Under the pieces are notes generated by a model, which saw nothing but the letters and a program-made list of their open reading frames with translations, did no database searches and was not told the DNA's origin. A stretch of 64,000 bases of DNA, taken from Mycolicibacterium tusciae JS617 (GTDB taxonomy: Bacteria > Actinomycetota > Actinomycetes > Mycobacteriales > Mycobacteriaceae). This document shows, in pieces, positions 6,694-48,132 of this stretch. The translations under genes and the position numbers were made by a program. Location: assembly GCF_000243415.2 (NCBI RefSeq), contig NZ_KI912270.1, forward strand, positions 3,100,001 to 3,164,000. Direction: 5' to 3'. The first letter of the stretch is position 1, and every line of letters starts with the position of its first letter.

Positions 6694-6719
6694 TCTCGAG
6701 TTGCCAACCTAATGGGATT

Positions 6720-6960
6720 TGATCGGCGCGTCGTTGGCGAACTTTCGAGGGTGTTGGCGAGACGCTGATTGGGTGAGCCGCTGGCCGGTGAGCACTTTGC
6801 CAACCTGGAACGGTCGTTGATTCCTACTGTAGAGATCGCGCCCCGGCCAGTTGGTGGCCACCTGTAGTGCTACTGGGATGTCGTGCCGATTTGAGCACTT
6901 ATCCATTAGGTCGCAACTGGGTGCCTCAGGCTCGACAGGGTGGCTGTGCCACCACAGATC
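6720..6960 (+). ncRNA. Predicted bridge RNA of IS110 copy 1
   Basis: Boundaries are approximate. A 5' stem pairs 6728-6732 with 6761-6765. A first loop is closed by a perfect 8-base stem (CTGGCCGG 6781-6788 with CCGGCCAG 6843-6850). It holds TTGCCAACCT (6797-6806), identical to the left target flank, and TGTAGAG (6828-6834), partly complementary to right targets that read CTCTG. A second loop is closed by GGTGGC 6853-6858 with GCCACC 6948-6953. It holds CTGGGATGT (6873-6881), identical to the right end of the element, and CCATTAGG (6903-6910), the reverse complement of the left end. Each loop has an inner hairpin and a spacing of about 21 bases between its two guides. IS621 bridge RNAs are known to work this way; the assignment here is inference. 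Confidence 0.75.
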
Positions 6961-6979
6961 GAGGAGGAAGGGTGAGGTG

Positions 6980-8203
6980 ATGTTGTTTGTCGGCGATGAC
7001 TGGGCCCAAGACCATCACGACGTGTACTTGATGGATGAGGAGGGCGCTCGGTTCGCGGCTCGGCGACTCCCCGAAGGGTTGACCGGTATCGGGCGGCTGC
7101 ACGAGATGATCGCTGCCCATGGCGAAGATCCCGGCGAGGTGATCGTGGGGATCGAGAAAGACCACGGTCTGTGGGTGGGCGCGTTGGCCGCCAGCGGCTA
7201 TCAGGTGTATGCGATCAATCCGATGGCGGTCGCGCGTTACCGTGATCGACACAGCGTCTCGGGGGCGAAATCCGATGGCGCCGATGCGAAATTGTTGGCC
7301 GACCTGGTACGCACCGATCGGCACAACCATCGCCTTCTGGTCGGAGACAGCGATCAGGCCGAGTCGATCAAGGTGTTGGCGCGGGCACATCAGAATCTGA
7401 TCTGGACTCGAGCACGTCAGATCAGCATGTTGCGTGCGGGGTTGTTGGAGTATTACCCGGCGGCGTTGCAGGCGTTCCCCAATCTCGGCGACCGTGATCG
7501 CGACCGCGATGCTCTGGCGGTGTTGGGCCGTGCCCCCACGCCGGGTCAGGGTGCCCGGCTAAGCCTGAGCAAGATCGCCGCAGCGCTCAAAGCGGGTGGG
7601 CGCCAACGCGGTATCGATGAACGCGCCCGTGAGATCCAGGCCCTGCTGCGCGGCCAGCAGCTGCACGCACCTGCAGCCGTGACGGCAGCCTACGGGGCCG
7701 CCACCAGCGCCTCGGTGAACATCGTGGTCGAGCTGACCAATCAGATCAGCGCGGTGGAAACCGAACTGGCTGAGCATTTTAGGACGCACCCGGACGCCGA
7801 CATCTACCTCTCCCTGCCAGGACTCGGTGTCATCCTCGGCGCCCGGGTGCTCGGTGAGTTCGGGGACGACCCGAACCGATTCACCGACGCTAAGTGTCGC
7901 AAAAACTACGCCGGAACCTCACCGGTAACCGTGGCTTCTGGCCGAAAACGTGCCGTCCTGGCCCGACACGTGCGTAACCGACGGCTCTACGACGCGCTCG
8001 ACCGCTGGGCCTTCGCCACCCTCAAATGCAGCCCCGGTGCCCGCGCCTTCTACGACCACCACCGCGCCGCCGGCGACACCCACCACAAAGCACTGCGCGC
8101 TCTGGCCAACCGACTCGTCGGAATCCTGCACGGTTGCCTACGCCACCACACGCCCTATAACGAAGACACCGCCTGGGCACACCGCCTGCCCGCCGCCGCT
8201 TGA
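6980..8203 (+). CDS. IS110-family DEDD transposase/recombinase (copy 1)
   Basis: The protein has 407 residues. The N-terminal RuvC-like domain carries the DEDD residues D6/D7 (VGDDWA), E59 (VGIEKDHG), D99 and D102 (KSDGADAKLLAD). The C-terminal Transposase_20 domain has SLPGLGVILGA, the RFTDAKCRKNYAGTSP segment and a Ser-Gly at 320-321 (VASGRK), matching the catalytic serine of IS110 recombinases. These enzymes cut and rejoin donor and target under bridge-RNA guidance. ATG 6980 is chosen because a strong purine-rich site (GAGGAGGAAGGG) lies just upstream; the longer frame from 6851 would run through the guide RNA. Confidence 0.93.
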   Translation: MLFVGDDWAQDHHDVYLMDEEGARFAARRLPEGLTGIGRLHEMIAAHGEDPGEVIVGIEKDHGLWVGALAASGYQVYAINPMAVARYRDRHSVSGAKSDGADAKLLADLVRTDRHNHRLLVGDSDQAESIKVLARAHQNLIWTRARQISMLRAGLLEYYPAALQAFPNLGDRDRDRDALAVLGRAPTPGQGARLSLSKIAAALKAGGRQRGIDERAREIQALLRGQQLHAPAAVTAAYGAATSASVNIVVELTNQISAVETELAEHFRTHPDADIYLSLPGLGVILGARVLGEFGDDPNRFTDAKCRKNYAGTSPVTVASGRKRAVLARHVRNRRLYDALDRWAFATLKCSPGARAFYDHHRAAGDTHHKALRALANRLVGILHGCLRHHTPYNEDTAWAHRLPAAA

Positions 8204-8225
8204 CAACTAAAAAGCTGGGATGTCT
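8200..8225 (+). promoter_or_regulatory. Right-end half of a promoter completed only by IS circularisation
   Basis: TTGACA (8200-8205) overlaps the transposase stop codon. It is followed by exactly 17 bases and then T plus the CT core (8223-8225). In a circular element the core continues into AAT of the left end, giving TCTAAT, five of six matches to TATAAT. In the integrated copy the same place reads TCTCAC, so the -10 box is lost. Transcription from the junction would begin just before the predicted bridge RNA. Confidence 0.6.
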
Positions 8226-8298
8226 CACAGCGACTTTGTCGCTGAAATCGGACTCGGCGGTAGTAGGTGAGCGACTTTGTCGCGCAGAGGTTGGCACC
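8226..8298. repeat. Paired palindromic repeat (REP-like) that is the IS110 target, interrupted by copy 1
   Basis: Two palindromes, AGCGACTTTGTCGCT (8229-8243) and GCGACTTTGTCGC (8271-8283), lie about 40 bases apart. The right outer arm GAGGTTGGCA (8287-8296) is the reverse complement of the sequence formed by the left flank of the IS (6701-6710) plus base 8226. Without the IS this would be an element of about 81 bases with 10-base inverted ends and two inner palindromes. The right arm, read on the minus strand, is itself an intact candidate target with its core CT at 8289-8288. Confidence 0.7.
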
Positions 8299-18531: not shown

Positions 18532-20338
18532 ACGGCCCGACATCGTCATCCTGATGACCGATGAGGAACGCGCGATACCTCCGTACGAGGCGCCCGAAGT
18601 CCTCGCGTGGCGCGATCGCACCCTGGCCGGCCGCAAATGGTTCGACGAGCACGGCGTCAGCTTCGGCCGCCACTACACCGGTTCGCTGGCCTGCGTCCCA
18701 AGTCGCCCAACGATTTTCACCGGCCAGTACCCCGATCTGCACGGCGTCACGCAGACCGACGGCATCGGCAAGGTGTTCAACGACTCCCGCATGCGCTGGC
18801 TGCGCCGGGGTGAGGTGCCCACGCTCGGCAACTGGTTCCGTGCGGCCGGATACGACACCCATTACGACGGCAAATGGCACATCACGCACGCGGATCTGAC
18901 GGATCCCACCACCGGCGGTCCGCTGGCGACCAACGACGACGACGGCGTCATCGACCACGCGTCAGTCCAGCGCTACCTCGACGCCGATCCCCTTGCGCCG
19001 TTCGGATTCTCGGGCTGGGTGGGACCCGAGCCGCATGGCGCGCTGCTGGCCAACGCCGGTGTCCGTCGCGACACGTTGATCGCCGACCGCGTCGTCGCGT
19101 GGCTCAACGACCGATATGCGCGGCGACGCGCCGGTGAGCCCGATGCGCTGACGCCGTTCCTGTTGGTGGCCAGCTTCGTGAACCCGCACGACATCGTGCT
19201 GTTCCCGGCGTGGGCGCGAAAAAGCCCGGTGCAGCCGTCGCCGCTGGACCCGCCGCCGGTGCCTGCCGCACCCACCGCCGACGAGGACCTCTCGACGAAG
19301 CCGGCCGCGCAGATCGCCTTCCGGGAGGCGTACTACACCGGATATGGAGTAGCGCCCGCCGTGGACCGGACGTACCACCGCAATGCGCAGCGCTACCGCG
19401 ACCTCTACTACCGGCTGCACGCCGAGGTCGACGCTCCACTGGACCGGGTGCGTCGGGCGGTGACCGACGGTGGCTCAGACAACGCCGTGCTCGTGCGGAC
19501 CTCCGACCACGGCGACCTGCTCGGCGCCCACGGCGGCCTGCACCAGAAGTGGTTCAACCTCTACGACGAGGCCACCCGGGTTCCTTTCGTGGTCGCGCGC
19601 ACCGGCGAGGGCGCGACGTCCGCTCGGGCCGTGACGGCACCGACGTCGCATGTCGACCTGGTGCCGACGTTGCTGGGCGCGGCGGGCGTCGATGCGGTGG
19701 CCATAGCGGAAAAGCTGCGGGAGTCCTTCACCGAGGTGCACGAACTTCCCGGTCGCGATCTCATGCCCGTGGTCGACGGCGCACCTGCCGATGAGTCGCG
19801 TGCCGTGTACTTGATGACGCGAGACAACATGCTGGAAGGCGATACCGGCGCGTCAGGTGTGGCGCGCCAATTGAAGCTGACGGTGAATCCCCCCATGCCC
19901 CTTCGAATTCAGATACCGGCGCACGTCGGATCCAACTTCGAAGGGTTGGTCGTCCGGGTGGACGAGGCGGACGGCGGCGAGGGCCATCTGTGGAAGCTGG
20001 TCCGCACCTTCGACGATCCGGCGACATGGACCGAACCCGGGGTGCGTCACCTCGCAGCCAACGGCCTGGGCGGCGAGGCGTATCGGACCTCCCCGCTGGA
20101 CGATCAGTGGGAGCTCTACGACCTGACCGACGACCCGACCGAAGCCGTCAACCGGTGGACGGACCCGGTGCTGGACGAATTGCGCCGCCACCTTCGGATG
20201 CATTTGAAGCAGGCCCGGACCGACGCCATTCCCGAGCGCAATAACCCGTGGCCGTACGTGTCGCGCCGGCCACCGACCGCGAGGCCGTCGGCTGCGGCGC
20301 AGATTATCGCCGCAATCAAGAAACGAATCAGCAGGTAG
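18515..20338 (+). CDS. Type I sulfatase (formylglycine-dependent alkaline-phosphatase superfamily)
   Basis: The protein has 607 residues. It opens with PDIVILMTDEER, whose metal-binding Asp lies where sulfatases place theirs. The modification motif is C60-V-P-S-R64, so Cys60 would be converted to formylglycine. Later elements are YDGKWHI, TSDHGDLLGAHG (metal-binding Asp-His) and QKWFNLYDEATRVPFV. No signal peptide is seen, so it is probably cytoplasmic. It would hydrolyse sulfate esters, possibly lipid or steroid sulfates; the substrate is not evident. It starts at GTG 18515 inside the SRPBCC gene. Confidence 0.88.
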   Translation: MSDLSERPDIVILMTDEERAIPPYEAPEVLAWRDRTLAGRKWFDEHGVSFGRHYTGSLACVPSRPTIFTGQYPDLHGVTQTDGIGKVFNDSRMRWLRRGEVPTLGNWFRAAGYDTHYDGKWHITHADLTDPTTGGPLATNDDDGVIDHASVQRYLDADPLAPFGFSGWVGPEPHGALLANAGVRRDTLIADRVVAWLNDRYARRRAGEPDALTPFLLVASFVNPHDIVLFPAWARKSPVQPSPLDPPPVPAAPTADEDLSTKPAAQIAFREAYYTGYGVAPAVDRTYHRNAQRYRDLYYRLHAEVDAPLDRVRRAVTDGGSDNAVLVRTSDHGDLLGAHGGLHQKWFNLYDEATRVPFVVARTGEGATSARAVTAPTSHVDLVPTLLGAAGVDAVAIAEKLRESFTEVHELPGRDLMPVVDGAPADESRAVYLMTRDNMLEGDTGASGVARQLKLTVNPPMPLRIQIPAHVGSNFEGLVVRVDEADGGEGHLWKLVRTFDDPATWTEPGVRHLAANGLGGEAYRTSPLDDQWELYDLTDDPTEAVNRWTDPVLDELRRHLRMHLKQARTDAIPERNNPWPYVSRRPPTARPSAAAQIIAAIKKRISR

Positions 20339-42191: not shown

Positions 42192-42226
42192 CCTACGACG
42201 GAACCACCGACTACTACTACTGCTGA
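42192..42226 (+). pseudogene. 3' remnant of the small secreted peptide gene
   Basis: The last codons (YDGTTDYYYC and TGA) match the intact gene at 46381-46536, but everything upstream is unrelated. It was brought here with the duplicated segment and cannot be expressed as a secreted peptide. Confidence 0.8.
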
Positions 42227-42316
42227 CACACTGCCTTTCGGCCGCGTACGCGAACCTTGCGTGGGCGGCCGTTTGGGTCTCGGGACAATATGCGGTGGTG
42301 CCAGCCTAATGGGATT

Positions 42317-42557
42317 TGATCGGCGCGTCGTTGGCGAACTTTCGAGGGTGTTGGCGAGACGCTGATTGGGTGAGCCGCTGGCCGGTGAGCACTTTGCCAA
42401 CCTGGAACGGTCGTTGATTCCTACTGTAGAGATCGCGCCCCGGCCAGTTGGTGGCCACCTGTAGTGCTACTGGGATGTCGTGCCGATTTGAGCACTTATC
42501 CATTAGGTCGCAACTGGGTGCCTCAGGCTCGACAGGGTGGCTGTGCCACCACAGATC
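42317..42557 (+). ncRNA. Predicted bridge RNA of IS110 copy 2
   Basis: The sequence is identical to the copy 1 guide region. Target-side guides lie at 42394-42403 and 42425-42431; donor-side guides lie at 42470-42478 and 42500-42507. The left guide has one mismatch (A for G) to this copy's own target. Confidence 0.72.
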
Positions 42558-42576
42558 GAGGAGGAAGGGTGAGGTG

Positions 42577-43800
42577 ATGTTGTTTGTCGGCGATGACTGG
42601 GCCCAAGACCATCACGACGTGTACTTGATGGATGAGGAGGGCGCTCGGTTCGCGGCTCGGCGACTCCCCGAAGGGTTGACCGGTATCGGGCGGCTGCACG
42701 AGATGATCGCTGCCCATGGCGAAGATCCCAGCGAGGTGATCGTGGGGATCGAGAAAGACCACGGTCTGTGGGTGGGCGCGTTGGCCGCCAGCGGCTATCA
42801 GGTGTATGCAATCAATCCGATGGCGGTCGCCCGTTACCGTGATCGACACAGCGTCTCGGGCGCGAAATCCGACGGCGCCGATGCGAAATTGTTGGCCGAC
42901 CTGGTACGCACCGACCGGCACAACCATCGCCTTCTGGTCGGAGACAGCGATCAGGCCGAGTCGATCAAGGTGTTGGCGCGGGCACATCAGAATCTGATCT
43001 GGACTCGAGCACGTCAGATCAGCATGTTGCGTGCGGGGTTGTTGGAGTATTACCCGGCGGCGTTGCAGGCGTTCCCCAATCTCGGCGACCGTGATCGCGA
43101 CCGCGATGCTCTGGCGGTGTTGGGCCGTGCCCCCACGCCGGGTCAGGGTGCCCGGCTAAGCCTGAGCAAGATCGCCGCAGCGCTCAAAGCGGGTGGGCGC
43201 CAACGCGGTATCGATGAACGCGCCCGTGAGATCCAGGCCCTGCTGCGCGGCCAGCAGCTGCACGCACCTGCAGCCGTGACGGCAGCCTACGGGGCCGCCA
43301 CCAGCGCCTCGGTGAACATCGTGGTCGAGCTGACCAATCAGATCAGCGCGGTGGAAACCGAACTGGCTGAGCATTTTAGGACGCACCCGGACGCCGACAT
43401 CTACCTCTCCCTGCCAGGACTCGGTGTCATCCTCGGCGCCCGGGTGCTCGGTGAGTTCGGGGACGACCCGAACCGATTCACCGACGCTAAGTGTCGCAAA
43501 AACTACGCCGGAACCTCACCGGTAACCGTGGCTTCTGGCCGAAAACGTGCCGTCCTGGCCCGACACGTGCGTAACCGACGGCTCTACGACGCGCTCGACC
43601 GCTGGGCCTTCGCCACCCTCAAATGCAGCCCCGGTGCCCGCGCCTTCTACGACCACCACCGCGCCGCCGGCGACACCCACCACAAAGCACTGCGCGCTCT
43701 GGCCAACCGACTCGTCGGAATCCTGCACGGTTGCCTACGCCACCACACGCCCTATAACGAAGACACCGCCTGGGCACACCGCCTGCCCGCCGCCGCTTGA
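42577..43800 (+). CDS. IS110-family DEDD transposase/recombinase (copy 2)
   Basis: 407 residues with all DEDD residues and the C-terminal Ser-Gly intact, so it should be active. It differs from copies 1 and 3 by a Ser in place of Gly at residue 52 (EDPSEVIVG), just before the catalytic Glu. The start ATG 42577 follows the same purine-rich site. Confidence 0.93.
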   Translation: MLFVGDDWAQDHHDVYLMDEEGARFAARRLPEGLTGIGRLHEMIAAHGEDPSEVIVGIEKDHGLWVGALAASGYQVYAINPMAVARYRDRHSVSGAKSDGADAKLLADLVRTDRHNHRLLVGDSDQAESIKVLARAHQNLIWTRARQISMLRAGLLEYYPAALQAFPNLGDRDRDRDALAVLGRAPTPGQGARLSLSKIAAALKAGGRQRGIDERAREIQALLRGQQLHAPAAVTAAYGAATSASVNIVVELTNQISAVETELAEHFRTHPDADIYLSLPGLGVILGARVLGEFGDDPNRFTDAKCRKNYAGTSPVTVASGRKRAVLARHVRNRRLYDALDRWAFATLKCSPGARAFYDHHRAAGDTHHKALRALANRLVGILHGCLRHHTPYNEDTAWAHRLPAAA

Positions 43801-43822
43801 CAACTAAAAAGCTGGGATGTCT
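43797..43822 (+). promoter_or_regulatory. Circle-junction promoter half, copy 2
   Basis: TTGACA at 43797-43802 and a 17-base spacer, as in copy 1. In the chromosome the -10 position reads TCTCTG, so it would work only after end joining. Confidence 0.55.
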
Positions 43823-46380: not shown

Positions 46381-46536
46381 ATGAACCGCCTCCGCACCCT
46401 CATCGTCACCGCCGCCGGCACCGCCGTCATGGCCGCAGGCCTCGGAGCCTTCGCGGTGGGCGCTGCAGGGGCCGCCAACGCCGACGTGTGCTGGGACCTC
46501 TCCTACGACGGAACCACCGACTACTACTACTGCTGA
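46381..46536 (+). CDS. Small secreted peptide (51 residues)
   Basis: ATG 46381 begins a clear signal peptide: MNRLRTLIVTAAGTAVMAAG with more hydrophobic residues, cleavage near GAANADVC. The mature part is only about 17 residues with two Cys and several Tyr (CWDLSYDGTTDYYYC), possibly disulphide-closed. The family is unknown. The ribosome site is CAAGGAG. A terminator follows, then the IS. Its 3' end is repeated at 42192. Confidence 0.7.
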   Translation: MNRLRTLIVTAAGTAVMAAGLGAFAVGAAGAANADVCWDLSYDGTTDYYYC

Positions 46537-46548
46537 CGCACTGCCTTT

Positions 46549-46584
46549 CGGCCGCGTACGCGAACCTTGCGTGGGCGGCCGTTT
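46549..46584 (+). terminator. Hairpin terminator of the small secreted peptide gene
   Basis: CGGCCGC (46549-46555) pairs with GCGGCCG (46575-46581), and inside it ACGC (46558-46561) pairs with GCGT (46569-46572), followed by TTTGGGTCT. The same hairpin is present at 42239-42274. Confidence 0.65.
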
Positions 46585-46626
46585 GGGTCTCGGGACAATA
46601 TGCGGTGGTGCCAGCCTAATGGGATT

Positions 46627-46867
46627 TGATCGGCGCGTCGTTGGCGAACTTTCGAGGGTGTTGGCGAGACGCTGATTGGGTGAGCCGCTGGCCGGTGAGC
46701 ACTTTGCCAACCTGGAACGGTCGTTGATTCCTACTGTAGAGATCGCGCCCCGGCCAGTTGGTGGCCACCTGTAGTGCTACTGGGATGTCGTGCCGATTTG
46801 AGCACTTATCCATTAGGTCGCAACTGGGTGCCTCAGGCTCGACAGGGTGGCTGTGCCACCACAGATC
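46627..46867 (+). ncRNA. Predicted bridge RNA of IS110 copy 3
   Basis: Identical to copies 1 and 2. Target-side guides lie at 46704-46713 and 46735-46741; donor-side guides lie at 46780-46788 and 46810-46817. Confidence 0.72.
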
Positions 46868-46886
46868 GAGGAGGAAGGGTGAGGTG

Positions 46887-48110
46887 ATGTTGTTTGTCGG
46901 CGATGACTGGGCCCAAGACCATCACGACGTGTACTTGATGGATGAGGAGGGCGCTCGGTTCGCGGCTCGGCGACTCCCCGAAGGGTTGACCGGTATCGGG
47001 CGGCTGCACGAGATGATCGCTGCCCATGGCGAAGATCCCGGCGAGGTGATCGTGGGGATCGAGAAAGACCACGGTCTGTGGGTGGGCGCGTTGGCCGCCA
47101 GCGGCTATCAGGTGTATGCGATCAATCCGATGGCGGTCGCGCGTTACCGTGATCGACACAGCGTCTCGGGGGCGAAATCCGATGGCGCCGATGCGAAATT
47201 GTTGGCCGACCTGGTACGCACCGATCGGCACAACCATCGCCTTCTGGTCGGAGACAGCGATCAGGCCGAGTCGATCAAGGTGTTGGCGCGGGCACATCAG
47301 AATCTGATCTGGACTCGAGCACGTCAGATCAGCATGTTGCGTGCGGGGTTGTTGGAGTATTACCCGGCGGCGTTGCAGGCGTTCCCCAATCTCGGCGACC
47401 GTGATCGCGACCGCGATGCTCTGGCGGTGTTGGGCCGTGCCCCCACGCCGGGTCAGGGTGCCCGGCTAAGCCTGAGCAAGATCGCCGCAGCGCTCAAAGC
47501 GGGTGGGCGCCAACGCGGTATCGATGAACGCGCCCGTGAGACCCAGGCCCTGCTGCGCGGCCAGCAGCTGCACGCACCTGCAGCCGTGACGGCAGCCTAC
47601 GGGGCCGCCACCAGCGCCTCGGTGAACATCGTGGTCGAGCTGACCAATCAGATCAGCGCGGTGGAAACCGAACTGGCTGAGCATTTTAGGACGCACCCGG
47701 ACGCCGACATCTACCTCTCCCTGCCAGGACTCGGTGTCATCCTCGGCGCCCGGGTGCTCGGTGAGTTCGGGGACGACCCGAACCGATTCACCGACGCTAA
47801 GTGTCGCAAAAACTACGCCGGAACCTCACCGGTAACCGTGGCTTCTGGCCGAAAACGTGCCGTCCTGGCCCGACACGTGCGTAACCGACGGCTCTACGAC
47901 GCGCTCGACCGCTGGGCCTTCGCCACCCTCAAATGCAGCCCCGGTGCCCGCGCCTTCTACGACCACCACCGCGCCGCCGGCGACACCCACCACAAAGCAC
48001 TGCGCGCTCTGGCCAACCGACTCGTCGGAATCCTGCACGGTTGCCTACGCCACCACACGCCCTATAACGAAGACACCGCCTGGGCACACCGCCTGCCCGC
48101 CGCCGCTTGA
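46887..48110 (+). CDS. IS110-family DEDD transposase/recombinase (copy 3)
   Basis: 407 residues, intact, differing from copy 1 only by Thr for Ile at residue 219 (ARETQALL), outside the catalytic motifs. It is expected to be active. Confidence 0.93.
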   Translation: MLFVGDDWAQDHHDVYLMDEEGARFAARRLPEGLTGIGRLHEMIAAHGEDPGEVIVGIEKDHGLWVGALAASGYQVYAINPMAVARYRDRHSVSGAKSDGADAKLLADLVRTDRHNHRLLVGDSDQAESIKVLARAHQNLIWTRARQISMLRAGLLEYYPAALQAFPNLGDRDRDRDALAVLGRAPTPGQGARLSLSKIAAALKAGGRQRGIDERARETQALLRGQQLHAPAAVTAAYGAATSASVNIVVELTNQISAVETELAEHFRTHPDADIYLSLPGLGVILGARVLGEFGDDPNRFTDAKCRKNYAGTSPVTVASGRKRAVLARHVRNRRLYDALDRWAFATLKCSPGARAFYDHHRAAGDTHHKALRALANRLVGILHGCLRHHTPYNEDTAWAHRLPAAA

Positions 48111-48132
48111 CAACTAAAAAGCTGGGATGTCT
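48107..48132 (+). promoter_or_regulatory. Circle-junction promoter half, copy 3
   Basis: TTGACA at 48107-48112 with the same 17-base spacer to the core; the integrated -10 position reads TCTCTG. Confidence 0.55.

Follow-up and report, generated by a model that had tools for sequence, protein, structure and literature searches.

A mycobacterial IS110-group element with a candidate bridge RNA whose guides co-vary with target and donor DNA in relatives

The window analysed here, a 64-kb stretch of a mycobacterial genome, holds what is very probably an insertion sequence of the IS110 group encoding a bridge RNA in its left end. The anatomy of this RNA, the boundaries of the element's copies, the target repeat and the co-variation of guides with DNA in relatives are all read from sequence; we infer from them that insertion by this element is programmable.

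Results

Five copies of one element at a common site

The complete IS110 element (copy 1) spans 6709-8223 on the + strand, 1515 bp with one CT core counted, and its second CT core lies at 8224-8225. A search of its own 7.3-Mb genome returned five near-identical copies, each of 1515 bp, the last two of them outside the window:

42306-43820, +, copy 2 of the element, with the same guides (copy comparison)
46616-48130, +, copy 3 of the element (copy and flank comparison)

In five of five copies the CT core was common to both ends and the insertion site read TGCCA(A/G)C followed by CT. The flanks, when joined, contained no target duplication and agreed with intact repeats, which is the scarless insertion characteristic of the IS110 group. 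Proof by an empty site at an orthologous locus was attempted and abandoned; the longest matches to the downstream gene in relatives were only 70% identical, and the scarless site was therefore judged by joined flanks and intact repeats of the same genome. Because the copies have different flanks, the ends of the element could be fixed independently. The non-coding left end is long, with 271 bp ahead of the start codon, and the right end is short; the downstream RNA position typical of the IS1111 group was not found, as only 20 bp separate the stop codon from the right end. No tRNA gene was detected within the 64-kb window, and a search of viral contigs yielded no relative of the element.

Copies 2 and 3 have in common approximately 114 bp of left flank and 32 bp of right flank and, on this sequence comparison, are probably one insertion that was afterwards duplicated as a segment; they were accordingly counted once, giving four independent events from five copies. 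The repeated left flank (42192-42305 and 46502-46615 of the window) takes in the end of a gene that, from its sequence, reads as small secreted-protein-like. Elsewhere in the genome, at G000:C4:4601398-4602294 (L006/L012), a decayed relative of the recombinase retains residues 101-398 at about 71% identity; a left end was not found there, yet a right-end-like string, TGGGATGTCT, is close by.

A decayed relative devoid of its left end, together with the resemblance of copies 2 and 3 to a segment duplication, would suit a reading in which the bridge RNA is real but the copies are immobile fossils. We consider this unlikely: compared with copy 1, the other four carry 0, 1, 6 and 8 substitutions per 1515 bp with no change in length, a single one of these (position 6892) falls inside the RNA region, copy 1 retains an unbroken reading frame, and the element has inserted on no fewer than four separate occasions.

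The recombinase gene

In the reading that we prefer, an IS110-group element with a bridge RNA of its own, the recombinase is encoded as follows:

6980-8203, +, recombinase (transposase) gene (PF01548 and PF02371)

A recombinase profile search matched NF033542, 'IS110 family RNA-guided transposase', with 172.7 bits (cut-off 140). Among solved structures the sole match up to an E value of 0.001 was IS621 (8wt6, E 1.6e-4), covering residues 274-394 only. With residues counted from the codon at 6983, D6, E58, D98, D101 and S319-G320 were invariant in nine of nine aligned proteins. A DEDD motif and a Ser-Gly are described in the IS621 structure paper (PMC11208158), and the glycine following S319 is in keeping with equating this serine, by sequence, with S241 of IS621; the protein encoded here is longer, at 406-407 amino acids, than the 326 amino acids of the IS621 recombinase (PMC11208158).

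The Rfam antisense sRNA family Ms_AS-4 was matched on the minus strand inside the recombinase gene of the window copies (7813-7894, 43410-43491 and 47720-47801), and also inside three copies of related elements in a second genome, G064; since the match lies within the recombinase gene in all of these copies, the 'actinobacterial sRNA' is there a piece of a mobile element. Ms_AS-5, a mycobacterial antisense sRNA family, was matched at 18692-18736 of the window, likewise on the minus strand. The Rfam scan of the window returned antisense sRNA families only, and a bridge RNA family was absent. In a related IS110 copy of G064, a group II intron (Rfam, L200 3367-3467) is situated within the first codons of the recombinase gene, which resumes beyond the intron from residue 11. 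A frame at L173 2415-3284, also in G064, is by its motifs presumably a reverse transcriptase.

Two loops with paired guides in the left end

The first-pass annotation had described two loops of one design in the left end, and each string that it quoted was recovered at its coordinates, including TTGCCAACCT, TGTAGAG, CTGGGATGT, CCATTAGG at 6903-6910 and the left-end CCTAATGG at 6708-6715. The candidate RNA comprises the following parts:

6720-6960, +, candidate bridge RNA (ends approximate)
6781-6788, +, target-loop stem, 5' arm CTGGCCGG (conserved, with compensatory changes)
6797-6806, +, left target guide (LTG) TTGCCAACCT, ending in the core CT (co-varies with left flank)
6807-6824, +, GGAA...TTCC, small hairpin separating the target guides (compensatory changes)
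6828-6834, +, right target guide (RTG) TGTAGAG, ending in the core-pairing AG (co-varies with right flank in relatives)
6835, +, target-loop handshake base A, facing the donor T before the core (conservation in relatives)
6843-6850, +, target-loop stem, 3' arm CCGGCCAG (pairs with 6781-6788, 8 bp)
6856-6870, +, donor-loop stem, 5' arm, approximate (folding of relatives)
6873-6881, +, left donor guide (LDG) CTGGGATGT (identical to right end 8215-8223)
6883-6898, +, GTGC...GCAC, hairpin separating the donor guides (all of its pairs retained in 51 or 52 of 52 sequences)
6903-6909, +, right donor guide (RDG), CCATTAG; the left end CTAATGG is its reverse complement (co-varies with left end)
6910, +, donor-loop handshake base G, which complements the target base preceding the core (co-varies with target -1)
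6913-6925, +, donor-loop stem, 3' arm, approximate (folding of relatives)

The first loop thus matches the target and the second the donor, both strands being read, with a weak match to the element's own right targets; the LTG occurs also as the left flank at 6701-6710. The spacing of 21 bases between guides, around a small hairpin in either loop, was borne out, as was the loop 1 stem formed by CTGGCCGG and CCGGCCAG, which is conserved with compensatory changes. For loop 2, the letters of the annotated stem, GGTGGC (6853-6858) with GCCACC (6948-6953), are there, but relatives favour pairing of approximately 6856-6870 with 6913-6925; what is conserved is probably not the annotated stem.

Covariance folding with homologues, which the first-pass annotation had put forward as a check, gave 26 consensus pairs in 52 sequences (RNAalifold), 12 of them with changes on both sides, and the compensated pairs were concentrated in the target stem and in the hairpin between the target guides. 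For the donor stem, own partners gave -21.1 kcal/mol versus -19.4 +/- 0.33 kcal/mol for shuffled partners (51 of 52 sequences), lending the donor-loop stem modest support. When folded alone, the left end of copy 1 was no more stable than shuffled sequence (z = 0.91), and thermodynamics by itself would have missed the RNA.

Guides follow flanks and ends in related elements

Related elements were collected as 102 loci, made up of 47 from a scan of named genomes, 30 from 297 genomes of the same genus (108 of which contained any match), 20 further regions and the five own copies. The alignment was built from the 72 loci that offered 300 bases or more around the left end and whose protein was 50% or more identical, and contained 64 unique rows once duplicates had been removed; copy 1 and its duplicate L060 lie outside these 64 rows, in which L008, L011 and one of L009/L010 (whose flanks are equal) stand for the element. 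The left-target test used 60 rows, equivalent to 48 distinct guides, four rows that had no left CT being left out; the right-target test used the 46 of 64 rows in which right end and right guide could both be used, equivalent to 25 distinct guides. Loci from a later search were read by eye and stand outside the statistics.

Over the 48 guides, the LTG and the left flank of its element had 5.17 of 8 bases in common, compared with 2.46 +/- 0.18 after shuffling (maximum 3.16 in 5000), a comparison that, like the other shuffle results, is approximate because related guides are not phylogenetically independent. The signal was bound to register: it was 5.23 at shift 0, 1.96 or 2.47 after a shift of one base, and at most 2.50 at the other shifts from -5 to +5. 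Agreement was strongest beside the core (0.92, 0.80, 0.88 and 0.70 at positions -1 to -4) and had vanished by -8 (0.32 versus 0.27); at least four of the five core-adjacent bases matched in 33 of 48 guide groups, and fewer than four in the other 15. The RTG agreed with positions +1 to +4 at 0.99, 0.95, 0.85 and 0.89, compared with 0.42, 0.34, 0.37 and 0.27 when shuffled (25 guides, 46 rows), which amounts to 3.67 of 4 bases in register and at most 1.28 out of register; at least three of four bases matched in 22 of 25 groups, and fewer than three in 3 of 25. Elements whose proteins are approximately 70% identical thus occupy unrelated sites, most of them foretold by the element's own guides.

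On the donor side, RDG and left end were identical at all seven letters in 53 of 63 rows, with no full match in the other 10. Nine of the 53 have CTAATAA, CTAATAG, CTAATGA or CTAATCA as left end in place of CTAATGG, and their RDG has changed likewise. The LDG is largely conserved and hence carries little co-variation. The donor-loop handshake base was complementary to target position -1 in 57 of 63 rows, L056 having no motif; among the six exceptions, L063 and L139 look like cases in which the wrong motif was chosen and were kept in the count. By guide group, complementarity was 0.917 versus 0.559 when shuffled, a level reached in 0 of 10,000 shuffles. In the 64 rows, the target-loop handshake base was A in all 60 with the motif, and the donor base T in all 49 with a right end. 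Handshake guides and their co-variation have been reported for IS621 (PMC11208158), and the co-variation seen here is an independent replication in other genomes. Within one genome, G064, the copies L173 and L062/L120 have the same LTG and different RTGs, possibly a guide change in progress.

The first-pass annotation had named guides that vary independently of flanks and ends as the outcome that would count against a bridge RNA, and had proposed that guide changes be set against target changes across related insertions. When this was done, the opposite was found: the LTG, the RTG and the handshake base co-varied with their targets, and the RDG tracked the left end.

As the left end lies directly 5' of the recombinase gene, it might be a regulatory leader of that gene (a small RNA or attenuator) whose matches are due to chance or are a legacy of wrongly set ends, and for ISPpu9, also of the IS110 family, small RNAs have been mentioned as presumed modulators of the expression of its recombinase (Durrant et al., PMC11208160); we hold this to be highly improbable, given that target guides, RDG and handshake base co-vary with DNA in relatives, whereas a leader would not follow flanks, and that the ends were set independently by copies with different flanks. 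Recognition of the palindrome by the recombinase protein alone, with a passive RNA match, would accommodate the presence of five of five copies in the own genome at the same arm sequence and the poor agreement of the RTG with its own sites, but is scarcely credible: recombinases approximately 70% identical to the one encoded here are found at unrelated flanks, most of which their own guides match, the left in 33 of 48 groups (4 of 5 bases) and the right in 22 of 25 (3 of 4).

A promoter predicted on the joined ends

Transcription of the proposed bridge RNA would depend on a promoter whose two boxes come from opposite ends of the element:

8200-8205, +, TTGACA, -35 box of the predicted junction promoter (overlaps the recombinase stop codon)
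6709-6713, +, CTAAT, part of the -10 box (makes TCTAAT with T8223 only on joined ends)

As a matter of sequence, the joined right and left ends read TTGACA-17-TCTAAT, and the integrated copy reads TCTCAC at -10. Both ends were recognised in 49 of the 64 rows, and in every one of these the boxes were 17-18 bp apart; 48 of the 49 have TCTAAT and 42 have TTGACA. The RNA start near 6720 was placed from the position of this promoter.

A dispersed palindrome is the target

The sites occupied by the element belong to a dispersed repeat, an imperfect palindrome of approximately 80 bp (TGCCAAnCT...AGCGACnnnGTCGCTCAACTACTACC...), which copy 1 splits:

6702-6708, +, TGCCAAC, left portion of the target arm (continues at 8224)
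8224-8296, +, rest of the palindromic target repeat of ~80 bp (repeat comparison)

For three of the five copies the site is one arm of the palindrome, which has two inverted AGCGACnnnGTCGCT half-sites; at copies 2 and 3 there is a lone arm only. A covariance model made from six intact repeats found 10 sites in the genome, both strands counted as one, of which three are split by the element and seven are intact, namely the six members of the model and one more. The sites of the model lie on contig C4 at 2.23 Mb and at 3.00-3.35 Mb, most of the repeats falling within 3.00-3.35 Mb of this 6.95-Mb contig:

G000:C4 2229003-2229094, repeat
G000:C4 3002558-3002648, repeat
G000:C4 3019818-3019909, repeat
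G000:C4 3095423-3095514, repeat
G000:C4 3099523-3099615, repeat
G000:C4 3198010-3198101, repeat
G000:C4 3223135-3223226, repeat

The six intact repeats all folded into a hairpin, four with z below -5. In a set of 148 genomes of the genus, 70 had a match with E <= 0.001 and 11, the own genome included, had one below 1e-10; the weaker matches may be chance hairpins. The long-hairpin fold raised the idea of an attC-like integron site, whose arm sequence the repeat appears to match poorly. A RAYT enzyme was also considered as mobiliser of the repeat and rejected: the Y1/RAYT transposase profile (PF01797) had 0 matches in the own genome, while 5 of 14 control genomes were positive.

The right target guide fits its own sites poorly

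The RTG asks for CTCTA and pairs poorly at the element's own sites. The CTCTG right of the core, as first annotated, is present at copies 2 and 3; copy 1 reads CTCAC and the copies outside the window CTCGC and CTATG. The three RTGs with fewer than three of four matches in the right-target test belong to the element itself, to L061 (the closest relative examined, 83% protein identity) and to L017. Compared with most relatives, the element and L061 have a right-target loop extended by one or two bases (by one in the element). The base before the core is C in all five occupied arms (four independent insertions) and in 7 of 16 free arms listed, a preference that is suggestive only. The LTG matched occupied arms at 6-8 of 8 bases and the 16 free arms also at 6-8 of 8, with no clear difference in the own genome.

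One tentative explanation, of rather low probability, is that target reading on the right side has been loosened or redesigned in the clade of the window element, with one extra base in the loop and with tolerance of arms that match the RTG at no more than one or two of the first bases after the core. If true, the left guide and the handshake base do most of the target selection, and natural bridge RNAs can target a variable repeat family, not one exact site. Perhaps a putative bulged pairing is formed between the RTG and the AG that begins AGCGAC in the repeat. The right guide of IS621 has four bases and the core belongs to each pairing (PMC11208160); the four-base guide gives a weak right side a precedent.

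Discussion

By analogy with what has been published on IS621, the RNA of this element may be expected to be transcribed and to enter a complex with the recombinase, whose DEDD and serine residues would cleave the DNA before strands are exchanged. The recombinase would first excise the element as a scarless circle, on which the joined ends would form the promoter TTGACA-N17-TCTAAT and allow the RNA to be transcribed from about 6720. Loop 1 would then read the target, with the LTG pairing to the bottom strand left of CT and the RTG to the top strand right of it, and loop 2 would read the joined ends of the element likewise; the handshake bases would pair with the exchanged strands and so aid recombination at CT. 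The element's own guide would be directed at the arms of the dispersed ~80-bp palindrome.

Bridge recombinases are under development as programmable DNA-insertion tools. To these the present work contributes an actinobacterial branch in which 48 different natural LTGs were tested, the majority in agreement with the flank of the element that carries them, and one well-defined element whose five copies in a single genome stem from at least four insertions and whose landing pad has been identified. REP sequences are said to have been described as insertion targets by Tobes and Pareja in 2006. An insertion sequence directed at dispersed palindromes is common to those cases and to ours, although the mycobacterial repeat has another sequence and Y1/RAYT was not found in the own genome.

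In the open-access literature, no actinobacterial bridge-RNA study was apparent by title among the matches listed, and print may differ; nothing was found there for bridge RNA with IS900, and for bridge RNA with Mycobacterium and IS110 only a review of CRISPR-based DNA engineering. The strings 'mycobact', 'streptomyces', 'actinobact' and 'actinomycet' are absent from the main text of PMC11208160.

The seekRNA of ISEc21 (IS110) and of the IS1111 family (Siddiquee et al. 2024, PMC11187229) resembles the candidate RNA in the IS110-type non-coding region 5' of the gene, in its matches to both target strands and in the natural redirection of guides among related elements. IS1111 elements differ in that their RNA lies downstream of the gene, where the candidate RNA here is upstream; they carry subterminal inverted repeats of 7-17 bp (PMC11187229).

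The closest comparison is with IS621 (Durrant et al. 2024, PMC11208160; Hiraizumi et al. 2024, PMC11208158), in which a left-end bridge RNA likewise has a first loop for the target and a second for the donor, a left guide that matches the bottom strand and a right guide that matches the top strand, a CT core and handshake bases. A promoter arising from the right-left junction, here predicted, and a DEDD and serine recombinase are also common to both, as is a target in palindromic genomic repeats, which are REP elements for IS621 (PMC11208160); that target is the REP of E. coli, and here it is an ~80-bp mycobacterial palindrome. According to Durrant et al., 85.7% of IS110-group elements have a predicted bridge RNA (PMC11208160), so the element joins a kind that is already known. 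To this we add direct evidence of co-variation from mycobacteria and from further genomes, almost all of them actinobacterial, together with the target repeat and the poorly fitting RTG.
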